Below, piece after piece: positions 1-40,238 of a DNA stretch of 44,613 nucleotides. The position numbers were made by a program, and so were the translations under genes. The DNA comes from a virus, in IMG/VR virus record IMGVR_UViG_3300032288_006200, positions 1-44,613 of that record, one strand, 5' to 3'. The stretch's first letter is position 1, and each line of letters starts with the position of its first letter. The notes under the pieces were generated by a model, which saw only the letters and a list, made by a program, of their open reading frames with translations, was not told the DNA's origin and ran no database searches.

Positions 1-2471
1 CTGCTGGTGCCCAAGGTGTTCAAGGAACTGCTGGAACCAATGGTGCTCAAGGCTCTGCTGGCGCTCAAGGCAATCAAGGAACTGCTGGCACGAATGGTGC
101 TCAAGGTGCTAATGGCGCTCAAGGTGCTGCTGGTGCCCAAGGTGTTCAAGGAACTACTGGCATAAATGGTGCTCAAGGCTCTGCTGGCGCTCAAGGTATT
201 CAAGGAACTGCTGGAACCAATGGTGCTCAAGGCTCTGCTGGCGCTCAAGGTGCTCAAGGAACTGCTGGCACAAATGGCGCTCAAGGTTCTGCTGGAACCA
301 ATGGTGCCCAAGGAGCACAGGGAGTCCAAGGCCAAATAGGCGCACAAGGCGCATCTATTACATTACAATCTGGCCTGATAACTAGCGGCTACATAGGAAA
401 TGGAGCAGTTGTATCTGGTAGCATAGCATCAGGACAAGTCGGAAATTTTCATATATCATCTGGCGCTATCACAAGTGGAGACATCGGAAATGGAGCAATT
501 GTTTCTGGAAGCATAGCATCTGGCATAATTGGTTCTATTCACTTGTCAAGCGGTGCTATAGGAATTGCTGGTTCTTCTGGACAAATTCAATTCAATGCTG
601 GAGGTACTTTAGGCGCAAGTGCTGCTGTTACTTTTGCATCTGGTGGACCAAATTTGGGAGTTGCAACTCAAGGCACAGGCAATGTGCCATTTAGAATTAC
701 CACAGCATCTGGTCATTCTACAAATTCCTTGGAAATTTATCACAGCGGCACATTATCAGCTGCCATAAATCCCGATGGCATTTTATACACCACACAACAG
801 TATGGGGGAACCCAAAAAGCTAACACGGTAATCAACGGCAATCTTGGCAATCCTTCCATACAATACAGAAATACAATAATTGGCAATTCTGCTTCTGTGA
901 CTTCAGGGGCTTCTTTTGGAGAAGCTGTCGCTGTTGGATTCGGAGCAATTGCATATGGCCAATATGGTGTTGCAGTAGGACAAGGCACAGCAGCAGGCAA
1001 CACAGGCATAGCCTTAGGATTACAGGCTAATTCAAATGGTTCAGACAGAGGGATAGCAATAGGATATTTAACAACCGCATCTTACAGTTTTAGCTGTGCA
1101 TTTGGTACTAGAGCAGCAACTTCTGCGAATGGTCAATTTATTTTTGCAACAGAAACTGCCGATCCAAGTTTCCAAATTCAGAGAATGAACGGCAGCAGTA
1201 TATTAAAAGGATTGTATAACTTTGGCGGGACTTGGATATCCAACACAAATGGCGCAGAAATTAGCCGTGTTACTATGGGTCCGATGTACGCTAACTCAAT
1301 GCAAGAAGCAATCAGAATGGATGCTGCCTCCGATCTTGCAAGAGTAGGCATAGGCGGCGCAGCATCTGGCAGACTTTGTGTTTATACAGGCGCTGCTGCA
1401 AACAAAGGTGTTGTAATACAAGGGTTTACATCACAATCTGCAAACTATTTAGAGATACAAAATAGCAGCTTAACAAGCATTTTGTCTTTTACCAATAGTG
1501 GAAATCTTGCAGTAGGCACTATGTATGCTGCATATTATCCGAATGGTCCAGCAGCCAGACTACATGTCAGAGCAATGACAATATCTGGAAACACCGTTAC
1601 ATCTCCGTGGCCTAGCAACACGCCAGACACACACGCAAACTGGAGAGATGCGGCAATAATATCTGATGGTGGCAACGGTGAAACTACAACAACAGGAACA
1701 GGTACTACTTGCGGAATAACTCTGGGAGAATATTACACTGGCAGAGTGGTAATTCAACCTTATGCTGCCGGAAGCTCATCTCCGGTTGACCAAGCAGCTA
1801 GGGCTGGTCGTGATATCATGCTCCGAGGTGGAACTTCAGATAATTTTACAGGAGCACTTGGCGGAAGATTATTCTTGCAAGGAGGCGCTGGGTTTACCTC
1901 TACAGGATTTAGCGGCAACATAGGCGTTGTTTCCATACAGCCTATTGCAGGTCAAGTAGGCATAGGCACAACAACTCCATCTGGAACTTTAAGTGTCACA
2001 AGCACCTCAGGTGCCATGATTAATACTATTTTTAGAGGCACTACATCTCAAACAGGAAGTTTAACAGAATGGCATAGTGCTTCTGGCACTATATTGGCAT
2101 CAGTAAATAAAGCTGGGGGTTTCTCAAGCACTCCGAATACTACCGCACTTACTGCAAGTCAAAATAATTATGCATTTGATGGAAGCTCTATTCAAAGAGT
2201 TTCAAGTAATGGTAACTATGATATTACTGGAATTACCTATCCTTCAGGTCTTTCCGCACACTCTGCCGGTAGATTTATTAGACTTTATAACATAAATGCA
2301 TCCGGTGGAAATAATATCACGCTAAAACACAACAGTGGAAGCAGTTCTACTGGCAACAAATTCTGGTGTGTTCAGCTTCAAGATATTGTGCTTGGACCTT
2401 TGGATTATGCGGAGTTGATTTACGATGACACAGACAACGGTTCCGGTAATGCAGGGTGGAGAGTGCATTAA
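1..2471 (+). CDS. Repetitive tail-fibre / adhesin protein, 5'-truncated
   Basis: The frame is open from base 3 with no start inside the window, so the true N-terminus lies upstream; 822 codons are visible. It begins with 39 Gly-X-Y triplets (collagen-like), followed by about 60 residues of SG-x-I-x-SG-x-IGNG repeats, then YadA-head-like repeats around 910-1140 (AVAVG, AVGQG, IALG, IAIG motifs), then a long Gly/Ser/Thr-rich beta region ending WRVH. Such repeat-built trimeric rods are typical of phage tail fibres and bacterial adhesins that contact the host. The inference is a receptor-binding or side fibre. The stop TAA shares its last A with the ATG of the RCC1 gene, so the two are translationally coupled. 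A TTG at 543 lies in the same frame, but the repeats upstream are clearly coding, so it is not the start. The exact fibre type cannot be told from sequence alone. Confidence 0.8.
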   Translation, partial: AGAQGVQGTAGTNGAQGSAGAQGNQGTAGTNGAQGANGAQGAAGAQGVQGTTGINGAQGSAGAQGIQGTAGTNGAQGSAGAQGAQGTAGTNGAQGSAGTNGAQGAQGVQGQIGAQGASITLQSGLITSGYIGNGAVVSGSIASGQVGNFHISSGAITSGDIGNGAIVSGSIASGIIGSIHLSSGAIGIAGSSGQIQFNAGGTLGASAAVTFASGGPNLGVATQGTGNVPFRITTASGHSTNSLEIYHSGTLSAAINPDGILYTTQQYGGTQKANTVINGNLGNPSIQYRNTIIGNSASVTSGASFGEAVAVGFGAIAYGQYGVAVGQGTAAGNTGIALGLQANSNGSDRGIAIGYLTTASYSFSCAFGTRAATSANGQFIFATETADPSFQIQRMNGSSILKGLYNFGGTWISNTNGAEISRVTMGPMYANSMQEAIRMDAASDLARVGIGGAASGRLCVYTGAAANKGVVIQGFTSQSANYLEIQNSSLTSILSFTNSGNLAVGTMYAAYYPNGPAARLHVRAMTISGNTVTSPWPSNTPDTHANWRDAAIISDGGNGETTTTGTGTTCGITLGEYYTGRVVIQPYAAGSSSPVDQAARAGRDIMLRGGTSDNFTGALGGRLFLQGGAGFTSTGFSGNIGVVSIQPIAGQVGIGTTTPSGTLSVTSTSGAMINTIFRGTTSQTGSLTEWHSASGTILASVNKAGGFSSTPNTTALTASQNNYAFDGSSIQRVSSNGNYDITGITYPSGLSAHSAGRFIRLYNINASGGNNITLKHNSGSSSTGNKFWCVQLQDIVLGPLDYAELIYDDTDNGSGNAGWRVH
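3..356 (+). repeat. Collagen-like Gly-X-Y repeat tract
   Basis: This is a coding tandem repeat with a basic 54-base (18-residue) unit, GAQ-GxQ-GTA-GTN-GAQ-GSA, present about six times with small variations. It contains no proline; Gln, Ala, Thr and Asn fill the X and Y positions. It likely forms a trimeric collagen-like shaft in the fibre. The high DNA similarity between units makes copy number prone to change by recombination, and to assembly error. Confidence 0.9.
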
Positions 2472-5188
2472 TGCCGGGTGAAGGCGTAATAGGAATGTTG
2501 CGTAGAAGGCCAAACGGAGTTGGCAAGCAACTTTGGGGATTTGGTTACAATAGTTTTTATTTGTTGGCAGATTGCACAAATGTCAATCGTAGCTCTCCAG
2601 TACAAAATTTTTCTGGTGGTAACAATTGGATTTCTGTTTCTGCTGGCAAAAATGCAACAGCAGCTGGAGTTAAATCTGACGGCACATTGTGGACTTGGGG
2701 CTACAACACACTGGGCGCTCTGGGAATTAATACACAGGGATTTTATACAAGCGTCAGTAGCCCCATACAAACCATAGCTTATGGTACAACTTGGTCATCT
2801 GTATCATGTGGTATTTACACAATTTTTGGTACAAAATCTGATGGTACTATTTGGGCTTGGGGAGGAAATTATTTTGGTCAAATCGGTGATAATACAATAG
2901 TACATCGTAGTTCTCCGGTTCAAGTCGTTGGTTTTGCAACCACATGGTCTTCTGTTTCTGGCGGTGCTGCTCATGCTGCTGCAATTAAAAAAGACGGAAC
3001 ACTTTGGCTTTGGGGATGCAATACACAAGGACAATTAGGAGATAACACAGTAACACACAGAAGCTCTCCAGTGCAAATTGTTGGAGGTGGAGCTACATGG
3101 TCACAAGTTTCTTGTGGGGAATACCATACTGCTGCTATAAAAACTGATGGAACTCTATGGTGTTGGGGTGCTAATTCTTTAGGCGGCGTGAACAGAGGTT
3201 GTTTAGGTGACAATAGCGTAATCCACAGAAGCTCTCCTGTTCAAACAGCAGCTTTTGGTACAAACTGGAAACAAGTTTCATGTTCTGCATATCATACATC
3301 AGCAATAAAACTTGATGGAACATGGTGGAACTGGGGAGATAATTCTAACGGTAATCTGGGTGATAACACAATAACTTTCAGAAGCTCACCAGTTCAAACA
3401 ACTGCTTATGGCTACAACTGGATTGCTTGTTCTGCCGGAACAAGTCATACAATGGCTATTAAAGCCGACTATTCATTGTGGGGAACAGGATTCAATAATT
3501 ATGGCTCATTAGGAACTAACGAAACAAGCAATAAATCTTCTCCTGTTCAAGTAGTAGGCGCAGGCAACTGGTATTCAGTAAGTGCTGGACAATATGTAAC
3601 TTTGGGGCTGCGATATGGTGATTTTGGACCATATTCTCCTGTGCCAGTGCCATCGTACACTCCTCAACCAATACCAACATCTAATGGATACATGTTTACA
3701 TGGGGCAATAATACGCTTGGTCAGCTTGGAGACAATACATCAACACATAGAAGCTCAGCTGTTCAGGTAGTCGCAAGCTCAATAAATTGGAAACAAGCAA
3801 GTGCCGGGAATTCATTTAGTGCTGCAATCAAGACTGATGGAACACTTTGGACTTGGGGACAGAATGCATCAGGCCAACTTGGCGATAATACTATTATTCA
3901 TAGAAGCTCACCAGTACAGACTATAACTTTTGGCTCAACATGGACTCAAGTTGGAGCAGGCAATATCCACGCAGGAGGTGTTAAGTCAGACGGCACCTTA
4001 TGGCTTTGGGGAAACAACACTAATGGTAGATTAGGTGATAATTCAATAACACATAGAAGTTCACCAGTGCAAACCATAGGTGCAGCTACGACTTGGATAC
4101 AAGTTTTCTGTGGGGATGCACACACGGTAGCGACAAAAAATGATGCAACATTATGGTGTTGGGGAAAAAATACAGATGGTCAACTAGGCGACAATTCAAT
4201 AACACACAGAAGTTCACCAGTTCAAACTGTAGCTGTAGGAACAAACTGGAAATATTTATCATGCGGTAGCAATCATACAGCTGGACTAAAATTAGATGGC
4301 ACACTTTGGTTATGGGGAAACAACGCATATGGACAGCTAGGAGATAACAGTATTGTCCATAGAAGCTCACCAATACAAACAATATCTTCTGGAACTAGCT
4401 GGACCCGTGTAAGTTGTGGCAGAAACATGACCGTAGCTGTTAAAAACGATGGTACACTGTGGTGTTGGGGCAAGAATACCGAGTATGAACTAGGAGATAA
4501 TTCTACAACCAACAGATCAAGCCCTGTACAAACGCTCAATGGTGGTACGAATTGGATTTCATGTATGGGCGGTTATAAACATACTATGGCTACAAATACC
4601 GGTAATTTGCTGTTTACTTGGGGAACAAACACATACGGGCAAATTGGAGATAATTCTGTATTATCTAGATCATATCCAATATGTATAGTTTTTGATACAT
4701 TAGAGTGGCAAGATGTATTTTCTGGACCCATGGCCAGCCATACATTGGCAACAGCACAATATGCTGTCAGCCCTCCACCTCCACCAACACCACCAGTGCC
4801 TCCGAGCCCATCGCCTTCCCCAAGCCCAAGCCCGTCTCCATCTCCTTCTCCCAGCCCAAGCCCATCGCCTTCCCCAAGCCCGTCTCCCAGCCCAAGCCCA
4901 TCGCCTTCTCCAACACCCCCATCTCCCAGCCCATCACCACCTTTGTCTCCAATTGCCCCGCCAACATCACCAGCAGCTTTTGCAGAAAAAGATATTGCTG
5001 ACCTTAATGATAAAAATAAATTTGCTTTTTATGTAGTCGCAAATCAAGACAATACCTATGATGTAGTTTGTTTGGAAATAAAACCCGGTATCAAATGCAT
5101 CGCTGGACCATACTTAACATATGACGATGCTAAAAAAGCAAAAGACAGTATTACATTCTATATCCCAACACCACCAGAAAATGACTAA
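2471..5188 (+). CDS. RCC1-repeat double beta-propeller virion/adhesion protein
   Basis: The product is 905 aa. The ATG at 2471 overlaps the previous stop (TAATG) and is preceded by GGAG at 2458, so it is preferred over the GTG at 2456. The protein holds fourteen RCC1-type repeats of about 50 residues (W-x-WG-x-N-x-x-G-x-LGDN, then RSSPVQ). Seven lie at roughly 2530-3600 and seven at 3690-4740, separated by a Pro/Tyr-rich linker at 3611-3690. Seven repeats make one RCC1 propeller, so two propellers are expected. A Pro-Ser linker (about residues 767-835) leads to a small C-terminal domain of about 70 aa. RCC1 repeats are protein or ligand interaction platforms. The position next to a fibre gene suggests a fibre-tip or host-binding role, which is inference. 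Nothing suggests Ran exchange activity. Confidence 0.8.
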   Translation: MPGEGVIGMLRRRPNGVGKQLWGFGYNSFYLLADCTNVNRSSPVQNFSGGNNWISVSAGKNATAAGVKSDGTLWTWGYNTLGALGINTQGFYTSVSSPIQTIAYGTTWSSVSCGIYTIFGTKSDGTIWAWGGNYFGQIGDNTIVHRSSPVQVVGFATTWSSVSGGAAHAAAIKKDGTLWLWGCNTQGQLGDNTVTHRSSPVQIVGGGATWSQVSCGEYHTAAIKTDGTLWCWGANSLGGVNRGCLGDNSVIHRSSPVQTAAFGTNWKQVSCSAYHTSAIKLDGTWWNWGDNSNGNLGDNTITFRSSPVQTTAYGYNWIACSAGTSHTMAIKADYSLWGTGFNNYGSLGTNETSNKSSPVQVVGAGNWYSVSAGQYVTLGLRYGDFGPYSPVPVPSYTPQPIPTSNGYMFTWGNNTLGQLGDNTSTHRSSAVQVVASSINWKQASAGNSFSAAIKTDGTLWTWGQNASGQLGDNTIIHRSSPVQTITFGSTWTQVGAGNIHAGGVKSDGTLWLWGNNTNGRLGDNSITHRSSPVQTIGAATTWIQVFCGDAHTVATKNDATLWCWGKNTDGQLGDNSITHRSSPVQTVAVGTNWKYLSCGSNHTAGLKLDGTLWLWGNNAYGQLGDNSIVHRSSPIQTISSGTSWTRVSCGRNMTVAVKNDGTLWCWGKNTEYELGDNSTTNRSSPVQTLNGGTNWISCMGGYKHTMATNTGNLLFTWGTNTYGQIGDNSVLSRSYPICIVFDTLEWQDVFSGPMASHTLATAQYAVSPPPPPTPPVPPSPSPSPSPSPSPSPSPSPSPSPSPSPSPSPSPSPSPTPPSPSPSPPLSPIAPPTSPAAFAEKDIADLNDKNKFAFYVVANQDNTYDVVCLEIKPGIKCIAGPYLTYDDAKKAKDSITFYIPTPPEND
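4771..4975 (+). repeat. Pro-Ser (PSPSPS) low-complexity linker
   Basis: This short-period coding repeat (cccagc/ccatcg/ccttcc hexamers) encodes alternating Pro and Ser between the second RCC1 propeller and the C-terminal domain. It is probably a stiff extended tether. Open frames in other phases across it are artefacts of the repeat. Confidence 0.85.
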
Positions 5189-6460: not shown

Positions 6461-6834
6461 TGGATCGTCAAAGCTTCGATAATCTTCCAAAAACAATTAT
6501 ATGCGATATAGATGGTTGCTTGCTAAAGCATCAAGGCAGCTTGCCAGAAATGATACAAAAACCACCAGAACTCTGTCCTAATGTCAAAGAACAATTTGAT
6601 GAATGGGATAAAAAAGCTTACAAGATAATACTCCTAACAGGCAGAAAAGAAAGTATGCGAGAACTAACTGAAAACCAACTCAGATCCTTTGGTTTGTTTT
6701 GGGATATGCTCATCATGGGAGCAACAAGAGGAGAAAGAATACTTATCAATGACATTAAACCAAATTGTGAATTCAATACTGCTACTGCAATCAATTTAAA
6801 TAGAAATCAAGGTTTCATCATAACTAGTGTATAG
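6460..6834 (+). CDS. Small HAD-superfamily phosphatase
   Basis: The product is 124 aa. HAD motif I is seen as CDIDGCLL near residues 15-22 (nucleophile and acid/base Asp), motif II as LLTGR near residue 59, and a late acidic NDIKP near residue 97. There is no large cap domain, so it is a minimal HAD enzyme, similar in size to the phosphatase halves of phage polynucleotide kinases and to small nucleotidases. Coupling to the glycosyltransferase/methyltransferase gene (TAATG) suggests a sugar-phosphate or nucleotide substrate, but this is inference. The last 11 bases overlap the 3' end of the convergent HNH gene. Confidence 0.65.
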   Translation: MDRQSFDNLPKTIICDIDGCLLKHQGSLPEMIQKPPELCPNVKEQFDEWDKKAYKIILLTGRKESMRELTENQLRSFGLFWDMLIMGATRGERILINDIKPNCEFNTATAINLNRNQGFIITSV

Positions 6835-7612
6835 ATATTTTTTTAGATTTTAAATAGTTTTCAAATAATATCTTATCATATTTCGCATGCTTGGAGACAT
6901 TGTCTTTTCCCTCAAGCGGCTGGAGATTATCTAAAGCATTTATTATTTCAGGCTTGTAAATTTTATAATCCAAAAATGCTTGAATAGGGAAAATATGATC
7001 TAAATGCCATTTGCCATCCTTTACTTTATTCCAGTTTGGATGATTTAAAACATGCTCCTGCAATTCTTTAGGGCCATATCCTAGCATTTGTGAAGTTCTT
7101 CCAACTTTGCTTTTATTGAAAGCTTGCAGAGTCGATCTTAAAGCCTTGTACATCTTCTTTCTAAACAAAATATCTTTTGAATGTTGTTCTCTATCAGATT
7201 TCCAACTATGATGGTTCGAACCTTTGTTTTTTTCTAGTCCACATTCTTTACAGTTTTGGTTAAGATGATAAAAACCAGCAAATGATATCTTTGATATTCT
7301 TCCACACTTACATCTATAATTATGCGTTGTATGAATGCCTCCATACCAATCATCTAAAAACTCACATTGCCTATCGATGAAAATTTGTTTAACTTCTTGC
7401 AAAGATTTCTTATGGGCTAAGCCCCATTTAGTGCATTTTCCACATCTTTTGCCGTTAGAAAAATTGTTCCAAGAGGTGTTGCCTACATTTCCACAAGAAC
7501 AAATATATTCCATTTTTACTTGTGCGCCTTGGTATTCACCCAATAGATTACACCCTTGTGATTTGAAATATTCAGCAACTTCAGCAGTTGTTCTTTTAAT
7601 TTTGTTTGTCAT
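6824..7612 (-). CDS. HNH endonuclease with N-terminal zinc-finger repeats (homing-type)
   Basis: The product is 262 aa. The C-terminal third carries an HNH signature: WHLDHIFPIQAF, then a central DNLQPLEGKDN, then a closing KHAKY. The N-terminal half has two related Cys modules (CSCGN...CGKC and CKCGR...CKEC), probably zinc-binding DNA-recognition repeats as in free-standing phage homing nucleases. It lies opposite the surrounding late genes, as expected for a mobile insertion. Start ATG is at 7612 with GGAGGG at 7624-7619 on the minus strand. That ribosome site lies within a hairpin (see 7621-7644). The family makes site-specific breaks that drive its own spread; the cleavage site is unknown. 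Confidence 0.8.
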   Translation of the reverse strand: MTNKIKRTTAEVAEYFKSQGCNLLGEYQGAQVKMEYICSCGNVGNTSWNNFSNGKRCGKCTKWGLAHKKSLQEVKQIFIDRQCEFLDDWYGGIHTTHNYRCKCGRISKISFAGFYHLNQNCKECGLEKNKGSNHHSWKSDREQHSKDILFRKKMYKALRSTLQAFNKSKVGRTSQMLGYGPKELQEHVLNHPNWNKVKDGKWHLDHIFPIQAFLDYKIYKPEIINALDNLQPLEGKDNVSKHAKYDKILFENYLKSKKISIH

Positions 7613-7620
7613 GCCAAACC

Positions 7621-7644
7621 CTCCACATATATTATAGTGTGGAG
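7621..7644 (-). promoter_or_regulatory. Hairpin covering the HNH gene ribosome site, with promoter-like loop
   Basis: On the minus strand a perfect 7-bp stem (CTCCACA / TGTGGAG) encloses the loop CTATAATATA. The 3' arm contains the GGAG part of the ribosome site for the ATG at 7612. The loop holds TATAAT, a perfect -10 box that also matches the first five bases of the T4 late box. A transcript starting from this box would begin within the 3' arm, lose the 5' arm and so expose the ribosome site. This matches the known logic of T4 homing endonuclease genes such as I-TevI; here it is inference. Confidence 0.55.
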
Positions 7645-7672
7645 AGTTTGATATTTTAATCTATAGTAACTA

Positions 7673-8560
7673 TCAGTCGAGAGTTATTGGGAGACAATCC
7701 CCATATCTTGTTATCAATTGCTCTTTCCAATCTTTCAACTCTTGATTGCCTTCTTGCAGCAATGTATCACCGTCTAACTGAACACCACCACCGGGACCGG
7801 GTGGATTTTTGATTTTGGATCTTATTCTTCCAAGCATAATCTTGGCATATGCAAGAGAACCTTCCTGCATTACAGATTGAACCCTTGGCCAGTCATTATT
7901 CTTCTGTAAATAATGAACAACAACTCTATGAACCCTATAAGGTATTGGATATATTTTTATATGCTGATATCCACCATACCACTCCCACCCACCTAAGTTA
8001 GATGCCAATCTGCTATAAGTTTGCTCGTATCCCTTGTAAAGGCTCCATTCTCCCATTCTTCCCCATATGGGTTGAACTGGATCAATAAGCCCCCCTTGGA
8101 TGGAGGCGTAAGCCCCGCCGGGATAGAAATATTCTACCGGCAATGCACCACCTAAATCACTTGATTGAAATGCAAATGTTCCTGTCTCTTTGTAGAATAC
8201 ATTTCTAATATATCCTACATCTGCTGGCATCTCGTATATGCTTTGGCCGGGAATGGTATTAAAGACATAGTATTTGAAGAATTCTCTGGGTGCCCATTCT
8301 TCGTAAACTTGTAGAGCGAGATCAACGGCAGCATCCAATTGTTGTATATCTAGTTCTATAGTAACTACAGGTGCTCCAAGCATCAAAAGGATAAAGTCCT
8401 TGAGTTGCTCTTTGATTTTGCCTCTATTTGGTCTTGCGCTGAGTTTAGCAACATCAAGAGGATCAGAAACACCAAGGTTATAATTTCCATTTGTGCTGCA
8501 ATTGACAGCATTCTGTGTTGGTTTTTGAATATAAAGGGTATTATATGAATAGTTGCTCAT
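7673..8560 (-). CDS. Putative neck / head-completion protein (gp13-like)
   Basis: The product is 295 aa and soluble. It starts at ATG 8560, directly against the plus-strand late promoter box. After a variable N-terminus it has KIKEQLKDFILLMLGAPVV, then LDAAVDLALQVYEEWAPREF, a pattern seen in phage neck or head-to-tail joining proteins. Aromatic and Gly-rich beta segments follow, with a C-terminal helix (QEGNQELKDWKEQL). Length fits the T4 gp13 size class (about 300 aa). It lies beside other neck-like genes (14864-15397) and gp15, but on the opposite strand, unlike T4 where genes 13, 14 and 15 are co-directional. The assignment rests on pattern memory and context, so a generic connector protein is the alternative. 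Confidence 0.5.
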   Translation of the reverse strand: MSNYSYNTLYIQKPTQNAVNCSTNGNYNLGVSDPLDVAKLSARPNRGKIKEQLKDFILLMLGAPVVTIELDIQQLDAAVDLALQVYEEWAPREFFKYYVFNTIPGQSIYEMPADVGYIRNVFYKETGTFAFQSSDLGGALPVEYFYPGGAYASIQGGLIDPVQPIWGRMGEWSLYKGYEQTYSRLASNLGGWEWYGGYQHIKIYPIPYRVHRVVVHYLQKNNDWPRVQSVMQEGSLAYAKIMLGRIRSKIKNPPGPGGGVQLDGDTLLQEGNQELKDWKEQLITRYGDCLPITLD

Positions 8561-30026: not shown

Positions 30027-30558
30027 AGAAAAACTCATCATCAAGCTTCAATAATTCTTTGACAGGAACACAGATCCATTCACGGTAGTTTATACTATAC
30101 ATATAGCTACCTTGAATGTCTGTGTTCCTTAAAAAAGCAAGCCATGGTTTTCTATCTCTTTTCCAAATCAAAACAGGTATCTTTCCACATCTTTTACTAT
30201 CATCTGTAACTTGTTGTAAAAAGGAATCCAGTTCTGTATTCCCACTTTCAAAAATATTATTTAAATCAATCTTGTTGTATCCACCTTTTGATTCAAGCAC
30301 AAACCGAAAACCTTCTGGGCAACAAATGTCCCCGGTAAGCGTTTCTTTTGCATGCTTAGGCATATTCTTTACCTGACCCCATCGATTGCCTGATCCCACG
30401 CTTCTTGAGAATGTCTTGTTTAAGTGGGCAAATCTTTCGTTTAAAATACCAACCAATTCTCTCTCTACCCTTTTGCCCTTACGACCACCATCTACTTTTT
30501 TCTTTTTATTGCTAAATTTTTCGATATGGTATGTGTCATCTAAATCATCAAAATTCAT
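30004..30558 (-). CDS. PD-(D/E)XK-like endonuclease (resolvase/recombination nuclease type)
   Basis: The product is 184 aa with ATG at 30558. A likely active site runs across the N-terminal Glu in GKRVERELVGILN, a serine-rich FSRSVGSGNRWG loop, TGDICCPEG (Asp), and VLESKGGYN (Glu-x-Lys). That is the spacing of PD-(D/E)XK nucleases, including phage Holliday-junction resolvase-like proteins. A KIPVLIWKRDRKPW strand follows. Being last in the gp47-gp46 operon-like run, a DNA recombination or repair role fits. It overlaps the VWA gene tail-to-tail by 23 bases. The exact substrate is uncertain. Confidence 0.65.
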   Translation of the reverse strand: MNFDDLDDTYHIEKFSNKKKKVDGGRKGKRVERELVGILNERFAHLNKTFSRSVGSGNRWGQVKNMPKHAKETLTGDICCPEGFRFVLESKGGYNKIDLNNIFESGNTELDSFLQQVTDDSKRCGKIPVLIWKRDRKPWLAFLRNTDIQGSYMYSINYREWICVPVKELLKLDDEFFFTQNLAD

Positions 30559-31613
30559 ATTTTTCCTTTTATGTTATTGTTAAGATAGTTTATTTTATCA
30601 TTTAATTCTTTTATTTCATTTATTGTCTTTTCATATGATGCATTATCTTGTTCCTTTTTCTGCAAAAGATTAAGAATATTATTTTCTAATTCCTTTTGAT
30701 TTTTTGCCAACAATGCTACGGATTCAAAAACAACATCTTGTTTAGATTTTTGAACAGAATTTTTTTCTATATTAAAAGTAATATCATTAGCAGAAGATAT
30801 ATTGTAAAATTTATCTTTCATGTTACAATTTTCATCAGTAAAAACTGACTCGAAAATATTCATTTCAATTTCATTTGATTTGTTATAAATTATTTCATGT
30901 ATTTCATATGGTTTTATTTCTAATAAATTATCGCAATTAATAAATATTTTTTTAGTTTTTATTTTCTCTAGTGCTTCAAAAAAAATGTCTAAAGTACTGA
31001 AAAAAAATATCTGGCCAATTTGATCAATAAGATTTGCCATAAACAAAGGTCTATGTTTATTTCTAAATAAAAACAAGCTGCGATTATTTTTTTCTATCTG
31101 TGAATATGCTATGGCAAATTGACTATTAATTGTATGGCTTAATAAAAATGACAAATTATCTACAATAGGACTATCGTGTTGTTCTAGAACTCTTAATATT
31201 ATTTCTGAATCACAAGAGCTTTCTGTTTGATAAATATTTTTTAAGTAATTATATTCATCTCTAGAGATAATTCCGTTATGTATGACAGCTTTTTTTAAAT
31301 CAGTGCTTATGAATGGGTGGTTGTTTATATTGTCAGATGGTAATCCAACTCCAACCGAAGCTGCCCTGCAATGAAAAATTCCTAAATTTAAATTATTATT
31401 CCATATGTCCAAATAGTTTTTTTCATATATTAACTTAGAAGATGGTCCCGGTTGTTTATGATAATATATCTTGTTTTGACCAAACTCGCTTACGCAATAA
31501 TAGCCAGCAGCATCAACACCACGCTCTTGAGTTATATCAAAAAGAGCAGTAGTTAATTCTTTTGTTTTAACTGGATCATTGCTTGATCCTATGAATCCCA
31601 ATAATCCGCACAT
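30555..31613 (-). CDS. Stand-alone class II glutamine amidotransferase with coiled-coil tail
   Basis: The product is 352 aa. It begins MCGLLGFIG, so Cys2 is the N-terminal nucleophile after Met removal. Other glutaminase motifs follow in order: FHCRAASVG, NNHPF, AVIHNGIIS and CDSEIILRVLEQ, as in GlmS and asparagine synthetase. No synthetase or isomerase domain is attached. Instead the last 70 residues form a coiled coil (NQKELENNILNLLQKKEQ). The domain frees ammonia from glutamine for a partner enzyme, which is not evident here. Its stop overlaps the next gene by four bases, and it sits three bases after the 174-aa gene. It is more AT-rich than its neighbours. Confidence 0.8.
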   Translation of the reverse strand: MCGLLGFIGSSNDPVKTKELTTALFDITQERGVDAAGYYCVSEFGQNKIYYHKQPGPSSKLIYEKNYLDIWNNNLNLGIFHCRAASVGVGLPSDNINNHPFISTDLKKAVIHNGIISRDEYNYLKNIYQTESSCDSEIILRVLEQHDSPIVDNLSFLLSHTINSQFAIAYSQIEKNNRSLFLFRNKHRPLFMANLIDQIGQIFFFSTLDIFFEALEKIKTKKIFINCDNLLEIKPYEIHEIIYNKSNEIEMNIFESVFTDENCNMKDKFYNISSANDITFNIEKNSVQKSKQDVVFESVALLAKNQKELENNILNLLQKKEQDNASYEKTINEIKELNDKINYLNNNIKGKI

Positions 31614-31616
31614 ATG

Positions 31617-32141
31617 TTATTGTAGTGGAGGTGCACCTATTGGAGCAGTAGGTTTAGCTGGTGGATTTACGCTAAAGCCAGACATGCCTTCTGGACCTGT
31701 TTCTGGGGCCGTAGGAGGCATAATATTGCTTGGTGGTATCTCTGGTTTGTTTGCTGCATCTTGTCTTTGAACACCAAGATCATTAACAGGAACATTCATC
31801 TTCTTAAGTATGTTTTGTATTTCTACAACGCTTGAAGCAATAGTATCTTCTAAATTGTCGTTATCAGATAATGCTTTAGCTAAAGCCACACCTACTTTTT
31901 GCATACCTTTTAAAAATTTTAAATCATCATCTAGCCAATGGCCGCCTAATAGACTCCGGATTTGATTTACGATCTTATCTGTAAATCTAACCAGATTCTT
32001 AGTACCGATCTTCTTGGCTTCGTCCTGTATTTCTTGTAGAGATGTAAGTATTTCACTTATCTCTTTTCCAAGAAATGCACGATTCTCCTTAAAAATGAAT
32101 GATTTAAAATCTAAATCAATATGTGAATATTCATTGATCAT
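31617..32141 (-). CDS. Hypothetical helical protein with Pro-rich tail
   Basis: The product is 174 aa, starting in an ATGA overlap with the pyrG stop. Residues about 20-120 are helical (ISEILTSLQEIQDEAKKIG and similar), and the last 45 are Pro/Ala/Gly-rich (SNIMPPTAPETGPEG, AKPTAPIGAPPLQ), like the tail of the 15409 protein. Near the N-terminus is DFKSFIFKEN, loosely like the capsid-targeting leaders elsewhere in the window. No function is recognised. Confidence 0.6.
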   Translation of the reverse strand: MINEYSHIDLDFKSFIFKENRAFLGKEISEILTSLQEIQDEAKKIGTKNLVRFTDKIVNQIRSLLGGHWLDDDLKFLKGMQKVGVALAKALSDNDNLEDTIASSVVEIQNILKKMNVPVNDLGVQRQDAANKPEIPPSNIMPPTAPETGPEGMSGFSVNPPAKPTAPIGAPPLQ

Positions 32142-33775
32142 ACACTATCTATGCTTTCATTCTTTCTCTTTGCTGAATTTTCTATCAATCCAACGAACAA
32201 AGGGGAAGCATTTTGTAACCTTGATTTAAACTCAGGATGTGCTTGCGTACCAATAAAAAATGGATGTATTTCCTTGTCTAGCTCCATTATTTCAATCAAA
32301 TTGCTGTCAGGATTTCTGCCAACAACCCGCAAACCTTTAGATTCAAATTCTGGCATGCTAACAAGATCGTTGTTGACCTCGTAGCGATGCCGATGTCTTT
32401 CATAAATGGTTTTTTTCTTATAGTATTCGTATGATACAGAATCTTTGCTTAGCTCACATGCATATGAACCAAGGCGCATAGTGCCACTTTTCTTAACAAT
32501 CTTTTCCTGTCCCGGTATGTAATGAACTACAGGATACTTGGTATTAATATTAAATTCTTCACTTGTAGCATCTTCCCATCCAATATGTCTGGCAAATTCT
32601 ATAACAGCACATTGAAGTCCCAAGCAAATGCCTAAAAATGGAATCTTTTTCTCTCTTACATATTTAATTCCTTTTATTTTGCCCTCAACACCTCTTACAT
32701 CAAAGCCACCGGGCACAATCATTCCATCGATGTTTTCAAAAAGCTTGTTTAAACATTTATTGTCTTTACAAGCTTCGACTTCGTCAGCATTGATCCAAAC
32801 AATTTCAGCTTTGACATTCTTAGCAACAGCTGCATGGAAAATAGCTTCCTTCAAACTAAGATATGCTTCATCGCAATTGTCATATTTGTTGAGAACAGCA
32901 ATTCTGACAGTAGTCAGGTCTTCATTGCCAATATATTTTTCTACCAAGTCACGGTATTTATGAATTCTTACTCCATTGCGGGTAAGATGGAACTTATCAA
33001 TAATCAGATCATCAACATGTCTATTGTAAAACTCAATAGGTACCTGATATACAGATTTTACATCTGGAGCTTCAAACACTGCGCTTTTAGGAACATTTGT
33101 AAGATTGGATATTTTTTCCATAATAGGCGCTGGTATAGGCCTATCTGTTCGGCAGAATAATATTTCAGGTTGCAACCCGGAACTCTGCATGCCTTGAACA
33201 GCCTGCTGGAACGGCTTGGTCTTAAACTCTTTGATAGTTGGTATCCACAGGACAGGAGCTACCAAAGAAATAATTACATCGTTCCAATTCTTTTGTTTGA
33301 ACTGCCGAATCGCTTCTAAAAATGGATAAGATTCTGAATCACCAACTGTTCCACCTATTTCAACCAAAACAATATCTGCATCTTTTCCTAATTCCAAAAG
33401 CCTGTTTATTATTTTGTCAGTAACATGTGGGACAATTTGAACAGTTTGGCCAAGGTACTTGCCCTGATCTTGCTCTTCAATTATTTCTTTGTATACAGTT
33501 CCAGAAGTAAGGATATTTTTAGAACTAACCTGACAGTTGATAATTCTTTCGTATGTTCCAAGATCAAGATCCGTTTCGGATCCATCGTCGCACAGAAATA
33601 CCTCTCCATGCTCTCTTGGTGCTAGAACACCAGCATTCGTATTCAAATAAGGATCAAACTTAATAGGGACAATTTTAAGGCCTCTCATGGCCAAAAGTAA
33701 TCCTAAGCTTGCGATGCTGACACCTTTTCCGGTGCCACTAATAACGCCACCACAAACAACAATGTACTTGGCCAT
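32138..33775 (-). CDS. pyrG: CTP synthase
   Basis: The product is 545 aa, full length for the family. The N-terminal synthase domain shows CGGVISGTGKGVS (P-loop), KFDPYLNTNAG, and EHGEVFLCDDGSETDLDLG. The C-terminal class I glutaminase domain has the nucleophile Cys in FLGICLGLQCA (about residue 385) and the catalytic His-Glu in AHPEF. The enzyme converts UTP, ATP and glutamine to CTP. It sits in one run with ribonucleotide reductase, consistent with enlarging the nucleotide pool for phage DNA synthesis. ATG 33775 is preceded by an AGGAAG ribosome site. The GGVISG form is less common among bacterial PyrG than GGVVSS. Confidence 0.95.
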   Translation of the reverse strand: MAKYIVVCGGVISGTGKGVSIASLGLLLAMRGLKIVPIKFDPYLNTNAGVLAPREHGEVFLCDDGSETDLDLGTYERIINCQVSSKNILTSGTVYKEIIEEQDQGKYLGQTVQIVPHVTDKIINRLLELGKDADIVLVEIGGTVGDSESYPFLEAIRQFKQKNWNDVIISLVAPVLWIPTIKEFKTKPFQQAVQGMQSSGLQPEILFCRTDRPIPAPIMEKISNLTNVPKSAVFEAPDVKSVYQVPIEFYNRHVDDLIIDKFHLTRNGVRIHKYRDLVEKYIGNEDLTTVRIAVLNKYDNCDEAYLSLKEAIFHAAVAKNVKAEIVWINADEVEACKDNKCLNKLFENIDGMIVPGGFDVRGVEGKIKGIKYVREKKIPFLGICLGLQCAVIEFARHIGWEDATSEEFNINTKYPVVHYIPGQEKIVKKSGTMRLGSYACELSKDSVSYEYYKKKTIYERHRHRYEVNNDLVSMPEFESKGLRVVGRNPDSNLIEIMELDKEIHPFFIGTQAHPEFKSRLQNASPLFVGLIENSAKRKNESIDSV

Positions 33776-39962: not shown

Positions 39963-40238
39963 TTATTTTGGTTTGGGCAGTTTGTTCTTTAGATAATCTT
40001 CTAGATCTCTCCAAACTTCATATACATCAAGTTTGGTTTTAGGTTGCCCTCCTGCTGGTGCAGCACCGGGCATTCCACCTAAGTCTGGAGGTGGTCCTCC
40101 GGGGGGTGGCCCTCCTCCACCTAAATCTGGTGGTCCTCCGGGGGGTGGTCCTCCTCCACCTAAATCTGGTGGTCCTCCGGGTGGGGGAGCATCCTCTTCG
40201 TTTAATACAATTTGTAAATATTCTCTAAATGTTCTCAT
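39963..40238 (-). CDS. Short Pro/Gly-repeat protein with capsid-targeting-like N-terminus
   Basis: The product is 91 aa from ATG 40238, with a GTG immediately before it. The leader MRTFREYLQIVLNEED resembles T4 internal-protein targeting leaders. It is followed by three near-copies of PPPGGPPDLGGGG (39-base DNA repeats at about 40080-40190), then a short helical C-terminus (LDVYEVWRDLEDYLKNKL). There is no ribosome site; a minus-strand AATAAATA box lies six bases before the ATG. It is likely expressed late and perhaps packaged, by analogy. Confidence 0.6.
   Translation of the reverse strand: MRTFREYLQIVLNEEDAPPPGGPPDLGGGGPPPGGPPDLGGGGPPPGGPPPDLGGMPGAAPAGGQPKTKLDVYEVWRDLEDYLKNKLPKPK

Follow-up and report, generated by a model that had tools for sequence, protein, structure and literature searches.

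The stretch analyzed here (the window) is the complete 44.6-kb viral record IMGVR_UViG_3300032288_006200, which covers part of the genome of a contractile, T4-like phage and encodes a sheath stabilizer, sheath, tube, baseplate hub, neck protein, ribonucleotide reductase, SbcCD, and Dda helicase. The window phage is probably a jumbo phage, because its CTP synthase shares 67% identity with the enzyme of an uncultured phage of 595 kb (LR756511.1). A phage glutamine amidotransferase and this complete CTP synthase lie on the minus strand at 30555-31613 and 32138-33775, the neighbors of the ribonucleotide reductase gene appear to encode its small subunit, and a tandem 39-bp repeat (2.4 copies, 98% match, Gly/Pro-rich when read as protein) lies beside SbcD at 40090-40181. 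The first genes of the window form a tail-fiber locus, which is compared below with the corresponding loci of two related phages, called L098 and L100 after their contigs. Its features are as follows.

3..2471, plus strand: tail-fiber gene, 5' end open at the contig edge; its translation has a collagen-like Gly-X-Y stalk (about 3-345), then a fiber body and tip
2469..2473, plus strand: stop/start overlap TAATG from the fiber gene to the RCC1 gene
2471..5188, plus strand: gene for a double RCC1-propeller protein of 905 aa, ATG at 2471
2471..2530, plus strand: short N-terminal leader MPGEGVIGMLRRRPNGVGKQ, net charge +3, conserved in L100 as MPGQGIVGIMRRRPNGAARP
2531..3619, plus strand: propeller 1, seven RCC1 repeats, aa 21-383
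3620..3682, plus strand: Pro-rich linker between the propellers, aa 384-404, also in L100
3683..4756, plus strand: propeller 2, seven RCC1 repeats, aa 405-762
4757..4972, plus strand: low-complexity Pro/Ser tether (SP)n, about aa 763-834; (TP)n in a sibling phage
4973..5188, plus strand: small C-terminal domain, 71 aa
5234..6460, plus strand: glycosyltransferase family 2 and methyltransferase gene, next after the RCC1 ORF, conserved in a sibling phage; no counterpart was found in the L100 contig retrieved

Architecture and predicted fold of the RCC1 protein

The upstream gene matches the Pfam collagen family (PF01391, E = 1.7e-14), and its stop codon overlaps the ATG of the RCC1 gene, which suggests that the two are translationally coupled through TAATG, as the first-pass annotation had proposed. 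The same kind of overlap is found in L100, while in L098 the ATG overlaps the TGA of the fiber gene. A GTG at 2456 is a possible alternative start of the RCC1 ORF.

The protein encoded by this ORF scores above the cut-offs of both Pfam RCC1 (PF00415, E = 8.4e-116 over 13 stretches, 378.9 bits versus a cut-off of 21.7) and WD40_RLD (PF25390, E = 4e-169, 563.1 bits versus 150). Repeat mapping places 14 repeats of about 51 residues in two groups of seven, the first starting at aa 21, 73, 127, 178, 229, 285, and 336 and the second at aa 408, 459, 510, 561, 612, 663, and 714. Together with the Pfam matches, this agrees with the original description of 14 repeats divided 7+7 by a linker and followed by a Pro-Ser tether and a small C-terminal domain. 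The C-terminal domain has a core of about 45 residues, FYVV...CLE...C.AGP...D.AK, in which two cysteines are conserved. Copies lie at 4973-5188 in the window, L098:1603-1821, and L100:4700-4870; apart from the window, the domain was found in three contigs only, all within the group of the window phage and its close relatives. It matched no PDB sequence and no Pfam family above cut-off, although there is a weak, subthreshold likeness to half of a SPOR domain (E = 0.19, 12.5 bits versus 21).

Two closed seven-blade propellers had been predicted from the repeats. Modeled alone from an alignment of 36 sequences, propeller 2 is confidently predicted to fold as a closed seven-blade propeller (pLDDT 91.7, pTM 0.91). 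The model aligns end to end with solved seven-blade domains of the RCC1 family (HERC2, Z = 54.3; UVR8, Z = 51; human RCC1, Z = 49; with RPGR included, Z = 49 to 54 over 338 to 357 residues at 1.4 to 2.1 Å), and less closely with BLIP-II (Z = 31) and phiKZ gp131C (Z = 16.7). The full-length model is poor (pLDDT 53.7, pTM 0.47), so the closure of propeller 1 is judged from sequence and homology: its seven repeats, and the 14-blade strand pattern retained in the low-confidence full-length model, suggest that it too would form a closed seven-blade ring.

High similarity between repeats had been taken as a sign of recent duplication. Blades at the same position in propellers 1 and 2 are 51% identical, while other cross-propeller pairs are 49% identical, and the mean repeat identity within the protein (0.48) lies at the 6th percentile among phage RCC1 proteins. 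A recent duplication of the propellers was therefore rejected, as same-position blades are no closer to each other than to the rest. The blades of the window and L100 correspond position by position above chance (0.545 versus 0.470), and the 7+7 layout is therefore older than the split between these two phages.

Turnover of the locus between related phages

Outside the fiber/RCC1 locus, the closest relative found is the L098 phage (109-kb contig), with which the window shares 92% identity in the neck protein, 75% in the sheath, 90% in NrdA, and 90% in CTP synthase. L095 is probably the same phage in another assembly. The L100 phage (IMGVR_UViG_3300008110_010842) is more distant (neck, 75%; sheath, 61%), and no CTP synthase was found in the retrieved L100 stretch. 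Almost every other shared gene is thus nearer to L098, yet the fiber tip and the propellers are common to the window and L100 only. The two fibers are 65% identical over 560 aa and 88.5% identical over the last 87 aa, which form the tip. Behind this homologous fiber, the L100 protein is built from the same parts as that of the window: a leader, 7+7 repeats, a Pro-rich linker, a tether, and the C-terminal domain; it differs in its shorter tether, in propellers that are 52 to 57% identical to those of the window, and in the genes downstream. The L100 fiber gene changes frame near the tip (L100:2064-2077), by either an assembly error or a real frameshift.

In L098, the collagen fiber ends in an unrelated tip, and its stop overlaps the start of a gene whose 121-aa product has no propellers and is made up of a short leader, a (TP)n tether, and the shared C-terminal domain. 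Across the three phages, the tether and C-terminal domain are kept while the fiber tip and propellers switch jointly, behavior that would be expected of a host recognition module. The difference between L098 and L100 could reflect exchange or loss, and it could be a loss in the L098 lineage rather than a gain elsewhere. Between the fiber module and the conserved neck gene lies a variable island, which holds an endonuclease VII/HNH-like gene in the window (6824-8560), several nucleotide-sugar and methyltransferase-type genes in L095 (2571-7797), and glycosyltransferase and methyltransferase-type genes in L100 (4860-9979).

RCC1 arrays and tail fibers across phages

The first-pass annotation considered RCC1 proteins, and double propellers in particular, unusual in phages. 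A scan of IMG/VR for RCC1 arrays returned at least 595 matching stretches, and 28 records of a phage collection match the RCC1 protein. Among 151 complete phage RCC1 ORFs from the retrieved loci, a nonrandom sample made up mostly of the best matches to a 14-repeat query, 100 have 7 repeats, 13 have 14, 6 have 21, and 2 have 28, so that 121 of the 151 have exactly 7, 14, 21, or 28. Such counting in sevens is expected of closed seven-blade rings. Multipropeller versions are routine, and the impression of rarity was wrong: the protein is real and was described correctly, but its composition is more ordinary than had been claimed. RCC1-repeat proteins are numerous in bacteria as well. The longest array noted, L163:1-10338, is a phage ORF of 3,445 aa with an open 5' end and about 61 repeats, or eight to nine propellers in series.

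We searched for phage RCC1 proteins beside fiber genes and found this placement to be common. The first upstream neighbor is on the same strand at 60 of 61 readable loci and, of these 60, lies within 20 bp in 56 and overlaps the array gene in 17. These neighbors match tail-fiber PHROGs, collagen (10/58), Peptidase_S74 fiber chaperone (10), and tail assembly chaperone (6), and are of tail-fiber type at most loci, with a minority of a few homing endonucleases or an oxygenase. Two isolates, S-SRM01 and BUCT-ZZ01, and the single-cell phage AG-345-E08 also have the fiber gene before the RCC1 gene. The RCC1 gene of the window belongs to the tail-fiber module in the same way, by a start that overlaps the stop of a collagen-like fiber gene in a placement that recurs across phages.

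In some phages the linkage is covalent. One protein of 2,445 aa (L102:1435-8772) combines 28 RCC1 repeats with ten collagen stretches, ends in an S74 chaperone and, judged by these domains, is a tail fiber with built-in propellers. Collagen is fused to 7+7 RCC1 repeats in L104 to L106, and the matching folds in BFVD include a named tail-fiber protein (Littlefix) and a protein with a T7-fiber N terminus (PollyC). The window divides the kinds of pieces fused in these proteins between two presumably coupled genes. On the downstream side of phage RCC1 arrays, methyltransferases and glycosyltransferases recur, and sulfotransferase genes directly follow the array at 14 of 64 loci (L002:1545-3251 among them), in places with 2OG oxygenase/TPR genes; these sulfotransferases possibly modify the fiber or the host surface.

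Over 1,880 phage repeat units, the most variable positions of the repeat are 6, 8, 9, 40, and 41 (entropy, 3.4 to 3.8 bits), and the same five were recovered in 199 of 200 cross-validation splits. In an alignment to UVR8, for which residues were chosen from mutations named in PDB titles, D96 falls on position 8, W285 on position 40, and R286 on position 41, while D107 falls on position 19, which is also variable; these four are known as residues of the UVR8 dimer interface. In recently diverged phage repeats, dN/dS is 1.83 (confidence interval, 1.44 to 2.38) at the five positions and 0.27 elsewhere. Positive selection was nevertheless rejected as proof of receptor binding: between phage orthologs the ratio at the variable positions does not exceed 1 (0.82, three pairs), and in bacterial RCC1 repeats the variation falls on these positions too, with a dN/dS of 1.01 or 2.31 depending on the threshold. 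Because bacterial RCC1 proteins share these positions, hypervariability is no phage-specific signature of receptor binding. What can safely be stated is that the RCC1 scaffold carries a few strongly variable surface positions; receptor pressure may be what drives them in phages.

Candidate roles of the propellers

We favor the view, at a probability of roughly two in three, that the RCC1 ORF encodes a virion adhesin of the tail-fiber module whose propeller loops bind a host surface ligand. The protein would be made right after the collagen-like fiber, presumably through coupled translation, and would be displayed on or near the fiber tip. Its two rigid propellers would each present a ring-shaped surface, with variable loop residues that bind a protein or glycan ligand on the host. 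The Pro-rich linker and the tether would make the protein flexible and extend its reach, and the small C-terminal domain would serve as an anchor or a second contact. Virion presence and ligand binding are both inferred here. The proposal of a host-binding head gains indirect support from comparison, namely, from the fiber linkage, the fusion of collagen, RCC1 repeats, and S74 chaperone, the turnover of the locus, and variability at UVR8 interface positions. That such a head sits on a tether may hold in outline, because the tether follows the propellers on their C-terminal side, and tether plus C-terminal domain are all that is left in the propeller-less L098 protein; the anchor may be at either end.

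Known proteins offer partial parallels. Phage RCC1-repeat proteins (PHROG 4219, 7220, and 16766; S-SRM01 gp335, gp337, and gp344; BUCT-ZZ01 UTS52180.1) resemble that of the window in their repeats and in their placement behind a tail-fiber gene, and UTS52180.1 likewise has 14 repeats in a single ORF. In contrast, these proteins (37 to 53% identity) lack such a Pro-rich tether and C-terminal domain, and those of S-SRM01 are single propellers in separate genes. The eukaryotic RCC1, UVR8, HERC2, and RPGR domains share the fold, and the UVR8 interface residues coincide with variable positions, but identity is 22 to 27%, and their cellular roles (RCC1 is a Ran exchange factor and chromatin binder with a basic DNA-binding tail, and UVR8 senses UV-B) are not expected in a phage. 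The C-terminal propeller of phiKZ gp131 (PDB 4GBF) is also seven-bladed and from a jumbo phage, where it lies at the baseplate periphery and is a proposed receptor binder; its similarity to propeller 2 is limited to Z = 16.7 and 11% identity, and to our knowledge gp131 is not known as an RCC1-repeat protein. Propellers in phage receptor-binding proteins are already known from phi11 Gp45, PRD1 P2, and phiKZ gp131 (PMC4901313). In Gp45, a fibrous stem carries the propeller platform (PMC4901313), but that propeller is single and five-bladed, and its description does not mention the RCC1 type.

An unlikely alternative is that the propellers are stable bulk that lengthens or stiffens the fiber, making the protein a structural spacer or a whisker or decoration protein of the virion that binds no specific receptor. 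Arrays of up to 61 repeats in a single phage ORF and the collagen between propellers look spacer-like, and tail whiskers of unknown makeup occur on a jumbo phage of the Rak2-like group; some phages of that group encode many RCC1-like proteins, although the whiskered phage itself lacks the one of GAP32 (PMC5259590). A mere spacer does not account well for variable residues that are unevenly spread and sit at known binding positions of the RCC1 family, or for turnover of the module between close relatives.

RCC1-family domains are known protein binders, as in Ran-RCC1, UVR8, and HERC2, and BLIP-II, a bacterial RCC1-type propeller, binds beta-lactamases. With the fold match to BLIP-II (Z = 31), this raises the less probable alternative of an intracellular or secreted inhibitor of a host protein that is expressed late with the tail genes and has no part in the virion. 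BLIP-II itself is a secreted single propeller that belongs to no virion, whereas phage RCC1 arrays are consistently placed behind fiber genes and in L102 are fused to a collagen stalk and S74 chaperone. RCC1-like proteins have, moreover, been detected by mass spectrometry in the virions of Escherichia phage W70 (three proteins, 141 to 233 spectra; PMC11370258) and Cronobacter phage GAP32 (PMC5259590), their location within the virion not being determined in either case.

These virion detections, the name of the eukaryotic namesake, and a median pI of 8.7 over 168 phage RCC1 proteins would also suit a role in organizing or packing the genome within the capsid. The annotation "regulator of chromosome condensation" implies such a role, and the authors on W70 (PMC11370258) and on phAPEC6, which encodes eleven RCC1-like proteins (PMC7247149), suggested it, but we regard it as very improbable given the linkage and fusion to tail fibers, the near neutrality of the window protein (pI 7.8, net charge +2, with an acidic C-terminal domain), and a turnover between relatives unlike that of a core packaging protein. 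Two RCC1-type proteins are likewise among the few strongly diverged products between fEgEco12 and its close relative Ecwhy_1 (PMC13070987), which fits adhesins better.

Comparison thus supports the adhesin reading: the window protein, and probably its phage family, would be tail-fiber adhesins rather than chromosome condensation proteins. We lean, by a smaller measure, toward the broader proposal that RCC1 propellers are widespread modular tail-fiber adhesins of one to about nine rings with a hypervariable face, cataloged under condensation or DNA metabolism, and that the window locus is a case in which related jumbo phages either carry or lack the entire propeller cassette but all retain the tether and C-terminal domain. 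The name "regulator of chromosome condensation" is attached to many phage genes, PHROGs files them under DNA, RNA and nucleotide metabolism, and experimental papers took a DNA-packing role from the name. In a search of papers available without subscription, with few preprints among them, we found none placing RCC1 proteins in phage fibers. If the adhesin reading is true, a large number of candidate receptor-binding domains can be recognized in environmental phages, cyanophages included, and host recognition can be tested with single propellers that fold well. A scaffold conserved except at a few positions of each blade would then be a natural repeat-based recognition system.
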